Assembly: GCA_944375745.1 (NCBI GenBank)
Contig: CALWAV010000068.1
Location: 1 to 32,045 of the forward strand
Source: an uncultured Merdimonas sp.
Lineage (GTDB): Bacteria; Bacillota; Clostridia; Lachnospirales; Lachnospiraceae
Direction of reading: 5' to 3'
Length of the DNA: 32,045 nucleotides
In this document: piece after piece, positions 31,462 through 31,997 of the stretch
Layout of the letters: every line of letters starts with the position of its first letter
Position numbering within the stretch: position 1 is the stretch's first letter
The notes under the pieces: generated by a model
The model's input: only the letters and a program-made list of their open reading frames with translations
Databases searched by the model: none
Told to the model about the DNA's origin: nothing
Program-made: the position numbers and the translations under genes

Positions 31462-31521
31462 TATTCTTCCTTCTTTCTCACTTCTCACAGGAGCTTCCGG
31501 CTCCTGCGTCCTGTTTTTCTG

Positions 31522-31548
31522 TTAGCACTCGCTTCTGCACATTGCTAA
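31522..31548 (-). promoter_or_regulatory. CIRCE-like (HrcA) operator
   Basis: The plus strand has TTAGCACTC (31522-31530), a nine-base spacer, and CATTGCTAA (31540-31548). The CIRCE consensus is TTAGCACTC-N9-GAGTGCTAA: the left arm is perfect and the right arm matches 7 of 9, for 16 of 18. It begins at the last base of the -10 element and covers the transcription start of the COG0523 operon, the normal HrcA position. Confidence 0.78.
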
Positions 31549-31575
31549 TTATAGCACGGTTCCTCCGTTTGTCAA
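31548..31575 (-). promoter_or_regulatory. Promoter of the COG0523 operon
   Basis: On the minus strand a perfect TTGACA (31575-31570) and a perfect TATAAT (31553-31548) are 16 bases apart, with an extended -10 TGC (31556-31554). This should be one of the strongest promoters in the window, suited to control by a repressor. Confidence 0.85.
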
Positions 31576-31584
31576 ACAGGAAAC

Positions 31585-31621
31585 AAAAGGACCATCTGTT
31601 CCAGCCGGATACAGACAGTCC
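31585..31621 (-). terminator. Terminator of the rplT operon
   Basis: GGACCATCTGT (31589-31599) pairs with ACAGACAGTCC (31611-31621), with two wobble pairs when read on the minus strand. It is followed by TTTTGTTT (from 31588). It lies about 20 bases past the rplT stop and just before the next promoter. Confidence 0.8.
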
Positions 31622-31640: not shown

Positions 31641-31997
31641 TTATGCAATCTTGCTCTTGGCAACCTCTGCAAGGGTAGCAAAGCCTGCCGGATCATTGAC
31701 TGCCATGTCAGCCAGCACCTTGCGGTTCAGCTGAACCTCAGCCAGCTTCAGGCCGTACATGAACTTGCTGTAGGACAGTCCATTCAGACGGGCCGCAGCG
31801 TTGATACGCGCGATCCACAACTGACGGAACTGACGCTTTCTCTCTTTTCTTCCTGCGTAGGAAGTAGCAAGCGCTCTCATTACAGACTGCTTTGCCACAC
31901 GATACTGCTTGCTTCTTGCTCCTCTGTAGCCCTTCGCAAGCTTCAATACTCTGTTATGTCTCTTCTTAGCGCCTAAACCGCCTTTAATTCTTGCCAT
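31641..31997 (-). CDS. rplT: Ribosomal protein L20
   Basis: The 118-residue basic protein is L20 of the large ribosomal subunit: [30 protein letters not shown] opens the extended N terminus that binds 23S rRNA, and [23 protein letters not shown] is the conserved core. AAGGAGG nine bases upstream supports the ATG. In Firmicutes it normally ends the infC-rpmI-rplT operon; the preceding genes and the L20-responsive leader would lie beyond the right edge of the window. Confidence 0.98.

Follow-up and report, generated by a model that had tools for sequence, protein, structure and literature searches.

A putative HrcA operator at a CobW-type metallochaperone promoter, conserved within a clade of Lachnospiraceae

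In the window, the whole 32,045-nt stretch of DNA analysed here, a CIRCE-type inverted repeat lies on the promoter of a CobW-type operon (Table 1). Comparative sequence evidence indicates that the repeat is very probably a genuine HrcA operator, recruited to a metallochaperone-type promoter in one clade of gut Lachnospiraceae, and that the operon is likely under HrcA control. The evidence is best read as an expansion of the HrcA regulon, specific to this clade, that takes in a putative CobW-type metallochaperone and its DUF1980-fused partner.

Table 1. Features of the cobW region in window coordinates
Feature	Position	Strand	Characteristics
cobW2, 316 aa, weak CobW domain in one chain with DUF1980_C/TIGR03943	29370..30320	-	without CxCC
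cobW1, CobW/COG0523 P-loop protein, 374 aa	30337..31461	-	GCICC motif, long His/Asp-rich stretch, CobW_C
Stem-loop in the cobW1 5' leader	31488..31506	-	predicted fold
CIRCE-type inverted repeat, putative HrcA operator	31522..31548	.	TTAGCACTC-N9-CATTGCTAA; sequence and conservation
Promoter of sigma-70/A type, TTGACA-16-TATAAT, TG before the -10	31548..31575	-	12/12 match; kept together with the repeat
Terminator-like hairpin with U-run, between rplT and the cobW promoter	about 31581..31621	-	fold z -4.64
rplT (ribosomal protein L20), upstream gene	31641..31997	-	translation and profile matches

The repeat and its promoter

Positions 31522-31548 read TTAGCACTC GCTTCTGCA CATTGCTAA and differ from the CIRCE consensus, printed as TTAGCACTC-N9-GAGTGCTAA in excerpts of PMC3842655 and PMC545781, by two mismatches that both fall in the same half. 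Direct reading of the letters thus bears out the sequence-only reading of this DNA, which had reported agreement at 16 of 18 half-site letters and the exact 9-nt spacer. No other CIRCE match with three or fewer mismatches occurs in the window, and a match at this threshold arose in 1 of 100 dinucleotide shuffles of it. Seven CIRCE sites with at most three mismatches were found in the organism's own genome (2.64 Mb searched, 162 contigs, 83% complete). They have 0, 0, 0, 1, 1, 1, and 2 mismatches, the cobW site being the weakest, and the reversed-pattern control gave three matches at this threshold and none at two or fewer mismatches. Across 61 related genomes, 232 forward matches with at most two mismatches stand against 2 reversed-pattern matches (summed), and only 2 of the 61 genomes have no such forward match. 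CIRCE matches of this quality rarely arise by chance.

The strong TTGACA/TATAAT promoter, with the repeat on its -10 and start, was also described correctly, with all 12 promoter letters in place. The last T of the -10 belongs to both elements (promoter at 31575..31548, minus strand), so that promoter and left half-site overlap by one base. Transcription is expected to begin 6 to 9 nt behind a -10, and the end of the -10 and this expected start both lie within the repeat. The putative operator hence overlaps its promoter, as is characteristic of the HrcA/CIRCE regulon.

hrcA and the other CIRCE sites

Two of the three findings named as refuting the sequence-only reading, a genome without hrcA and a repeat not kept in orthologous promoters, were looked for, and neither was made. 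The genome encodes hrcA (E 4.1e-67), followed by frames that read by eye as grpE and dnaK. The genome-wide search returned the seven CIRCE sites, and the six besides the cobW site all lie at heat-shock loci: groESL, htpG, the stretch that separates hrcA from a divergent clpB, and three hsp20 loci, one with a DnaJ-domain gene behind hsp20. The cobW operon is the sole non-heat-shock target among the seven sites found in this 83% complete genome. One of the three hsp20 loci, at L005:1501-1759, has its CIRCE before a remnant in which just the C-terminal portion of hsp20 is left (HSP20 profile positions 46-101), possibly a broken gene that still has its own operator.

The cobW site shares the operator sequence, the spacer, the promoter overlap, and the presence of hrcA in the genome with the HrcA/CIRCE class I regulon (groESL, hrcA-grpE-dnaK-dnaJ). 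It differs in that the target is a metallochaperone-type operon instead of a chaperone or protease, and in that one half-site is imperfect. Descriptions of HrcA regulons mostly concern chaperone genes, although single predicted non-chaperone members exist (PMC545781, PMC3842655). In these sources, groESL is the only constant HrcA regulon member of delta-proteobacteria (PMC545781), and an integrase gene is a predicted non-chaperone member in L. plantarum (PMC3842655).

The cobW genes

The operon had been read as a pair of COG0523 genes, which is correct for cobW1 and too generous for cobW2. Both genes lie on the minus strand with a gap of 16 nt. The start of cobW1 was set at the ATG that aligns across 16 congeners; the ORF listing opens the same frame at an earlier GTG. 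The CobW1 protein matches PF02492 (E 3.3e-39) and PF07683 (E 2.7e-07) and combines the CobW P-loop domain, CxCC motif, and CobW_C domain that mark COG0523. Its GCICC motif is kept in all 109 relative loci. Escherichia coli YjiA (PDB 1nij, 4ixm) is homologous to the P-loop domain (residues 4-169, E 1.8e-21); the match is confined to the N-terminal domain, and the comparison concerns protein sequence. In cobW2, the CobW domain is weaker (E 1.3e-07) and fused to a TIGR03943/DUF1980 domain, which scores above the NCBIfam cut-off (E 7.1e-26). TIGR03943/DUF1980 proteins have this same C-terminal domain, here joined to a CobW-like domain in one chain. The gene is called a CobW-DUF1980 fusion on the basis of these profile matches, and it is not counted as a COG0523 member because its translation contains no CxCC motif and its CobW domain is weak.

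The [N/T]KxD motif confers nucleotide specificity. It was not found in cobW1, where SRTQ at residues 152-155 stands opposite TKTD of YjiA, and S[RH]T-x is usual at this position among the 109 relative loci. The motif was not treated as family-defining for COG0523. Since SRTQ replaces TKTD and S[RH]T is usual in the relatives, CobW1 may have a nucleotide preference unlike the one typical of G3E GTPases, and its use of GTP is in doubt.

Family membership suggests a role of cobW1 and cobW2 in metal handling. The literature connects COG0523 proteins with zinc, and frequently with Zur as well (PMC2770081, in part). A Zur-regulated example from the same excerpts, yciC of Bacillus subtilis, also encodes a CobW-domain P-loop protein with the GCICC metal motif. 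In contrast to yciC, the cobW operon has a CIRCE on its promoter, and no close match to the Zur consensus strings used was seen there.

Conservation within the clade

All 16 congeneric genomes contain cobW1. An alignment of the orthologous promoters, proposed as a check, showed that 13 of the 16 keep the repeat together with the promoter. One additional lineage, L162, which on the cobW1 tree falls together with G028, a member of another genus, brings the number of carriers to 14. Records named Lachnoclostridium sp. An138 and An131 have the site. All 14 carriers have GAGTGCTAA as the right half; the left half is imperfect in every one of them and reads TTAGCAGTG in eight, TTAGCAGTA in three, TTGGCAGTG in two, and TTAGCAATG in one. 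Among the half-site columns 15 of 18 are invariant, compared with none of the nine spacer columns, and 11 different spacers occur. Mean information is 1.81 and 2.0 bits in the halves, 1.05 in the spacer, and 0.24-0.34 in the flanks; the spacer is the fairer yardstick because indels lower the flank values. Unlike the promoter and repeat, the flanking intergenic DNA of the carriers does not align. L016 has an intact repeat with an extra 3 nt between it and the -10, so the repeat is more than a piece of the -10.

The three remaining congeners (G002, G012, G014) lack both promoter and repeat, and their cobW1 begins shortly behind the rplT terminator hairpin. Both elements are absent as well from G028 (L067, also L128), a related lineage. 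At L011, L012, and L013, cobW1 follows the rplT terminator hairpin directly, and the promoter block seen in the congeners is missing. The locus L153:2700-3060 has the same promoter, TTTGACAA...CGTGCTATAAT, and no CIRCE right half; it is a natural operator-free version. The absence of promoter and site from three congeners and G028, and of the repeat from L153, implies that the control is dispensable. On the cobW1 tree (22 rows, poor support at 9 of 19 inner branches), site presence requires four changes, at least two of them on well-supported branches, and this patchy presence suggests that the site was lost more than once.

In the family as a whole, 173 of 200 genomes (the own genome included) have a cobW1 match, and the upstream regions of 89 of the 172 others (29 + 60) were inspected. 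CIRCE was absent upstream of the cobW1 relatives in all 89, which belong to other genera; the best match had at least six mismatches, within the range of shuffled sequence. A cobW2 relative is present in the locus in 27 of the first 29. A set of 80 cobW1 loci comprised 11 with two mismatches, 2 with three, and 67 with five or more. Judged by the letters of the site, 12 of the 13 close matches repeat congeners already counted, and the new one is L162. Because the site is absent from the 89 other-genus regions examined, the putative CIRCE control of the cobW operon is a clade-limited feature.

The imperfect half-site

The site might be of HrcA origin and now weak or decaying, with HrcA contributing little and the operon being nearly constitutive. 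This alternative is unlikely; it overlaps with the best explanation, so the odds of the two are not exclusive. It would fit the rank of the cobW site as the weakest of seven, the mismatches in the carriers (two in 12 congeners, three in L019 and L162), and the several losses implied by the tree. Against decay, the right half is invariant and the left half nearly so, and the spacer is free to vary. The same imperfect half is also in use elsewhere. The 200 family genomes contain 20 instances of the variant TTAGCARTR-N9-GAGTGCTAA and no control matches. One is the window site, and the other 19 precede heat-shock genes (11 hsp20, 4 groESL, 3 clpB, and 1 lon). The lon protease gene behind the variant (L103:1501-3025) was seen in one family member, G108.

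At 18 of these 19 sites, the changed half contains TTGACA on the other strand, and this overlap would account for the change; L100 is the exception, and the window site likewise has no such overlap. An overlapping -35 was considered as the reason for the imperfect cobW half and fails, since the window site has no TTGACA on the opposite strand, a point that counts against the HrcA reading. The cobW variant differs from these 18 heat-shock variants in that its changed half lies on the -10 and start instead. The changed letters at cobW1 fall where transcription would start, and one may guess, though only guess, that a purine at the transcript start explains them.

Other regulators, RNA, and chance

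Zur, another Fur-family protein, or CtsR might control the promoter, the likeness to CIRCE being incidental. Predicted Zur sites precede COG0523 genes in many bacteria (PMC2770081, excerpts), the genome has four Fur-family matches, and a loose Fur-type palindrome with two or fewer mismatches occurs in 7 of the 89 other-genus upstream regions compared with 280 of 8900 in a Markov control, a mild excess. In the same 89 regions, four of five consensus strings showed no clear or a very small excess, and Fur/PerR at two mismatches was found in three. One of the seven, in G088 (L231), matches the loose Fur-type palindrome perfectly, as TGAAAATCATTTTCA, 109 nt upstream of the cobW1 relative. The regulator of the cobW1 relatives possibly changed within the family. 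For the operon studied here, however, control by another such regulator is very unlikely: the best Zur-, Fur/PerR-, and CtsR-like matches in its own upstream region have 5 to 10 mismatches to the consensus strings used, which may not represent the Zur box of this clade, and in 13 carriers the promoter and repeat form the only conserved block between rplT and cobW1, the ribosome-binding region aside.

Alternatively, the repeat could work mainly in the RNA leader, through mRNA stability or translation, and not as a DNA operator. If the whole repeat were transcribed, six outer base pairs would form in the predicted fold (z -3.35), and the cobW1 leader contains a further, strong hairpin (Table 1), also present in L009, L010, L014, L019, and L020 with different bases in the stem. 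No Rfam family matched in the window at the gathering threshold. Action mainly in RNA is nevertheless highly improbable, because the expected transcription start falls inside the left half and leaves most of the left arm outside the RNA, and because half-site positions 7 and 9, whose letters are common to the clade, are unpaired; the repeat may still have some role in RNA. Last, the two mismatches, the one-base overlap of promoter and left half, and the three control matches with at most three mismatches in the own genome could hint at a chance repeat on a strong promoter, an origin that has next to no probability and is rejected given the control counts (232 to 2), the conservation in 13 of 16 congeners, and the 15 of 18 invariant half-site columns.

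Proposed regulation and its meaning

A recruited HrcA operator would place the cobW operon under the logic known from B. subtilis, where HrcA is stabilised by GroEL and the titration of GroEL by unfolded proteins frees the HrcA-repressed genes (PMC5727486, in part). By this same GroEL-HrcA logic, the operon would be kept repressed while cells grow and switched on together with the class I heat-shock genes. GroEL would maintain HrcA in its active form during normal growth, and HrcA would occupy the repeat across the -10 and start and block RNA polymerase. Unfolded proteins that occupy GroEL would cause the release of HrcA from the repeat, and cobW1 and cobW2 would be induced alongside groESL, the hrcA operon, htpG, and hsp20. 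The CobW proteins might then deliver or rescue metal, most likely zinc, for damaged or newly folded clients. We infer HrcA binding, repression, heat induction, and metal delivery at this operon from the site and the gene families. Tentatively, the level of free GroEL, not zinc status, might set the metallochaperone pair; the class I heat-shock response could then include metal delivery, in which CobW1 and the CobW-DUF1980 fusion would restore metal to clients that GroEL and DnaK release.

Among the matches listed by a literature search, whose reach left out most subscription journals, none linked HrcA or CIRCE with COG0523 or CobW. In the text available from each source, cobW and hrcA are separate rows of one expression table without a link (PMC5480029), hrcA occurs in a reference only and without a COG0523 link (PMC4176598), and "heat shock" denotes a transformation step (PMC12208494). 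A connection between COG0523 and heat has precedent outside bacteria, because excerpts of Haas et al. (PMC2770081) mention an Arabidopsis COG0523 gene that is induced by heat and a yeast mutant that is sensitive to it.

The cobW site is a CIRCE-type operator, real and conserved, on an unexpected target, a CobW-type operon. Its position suggests a coupling of protein damage to metal delivery in these cells, a physiological link that would follow from the predicted control. The conserved CIRCE would offer a direct genetic handle on whether metal insertion belongs to the unfolding response.
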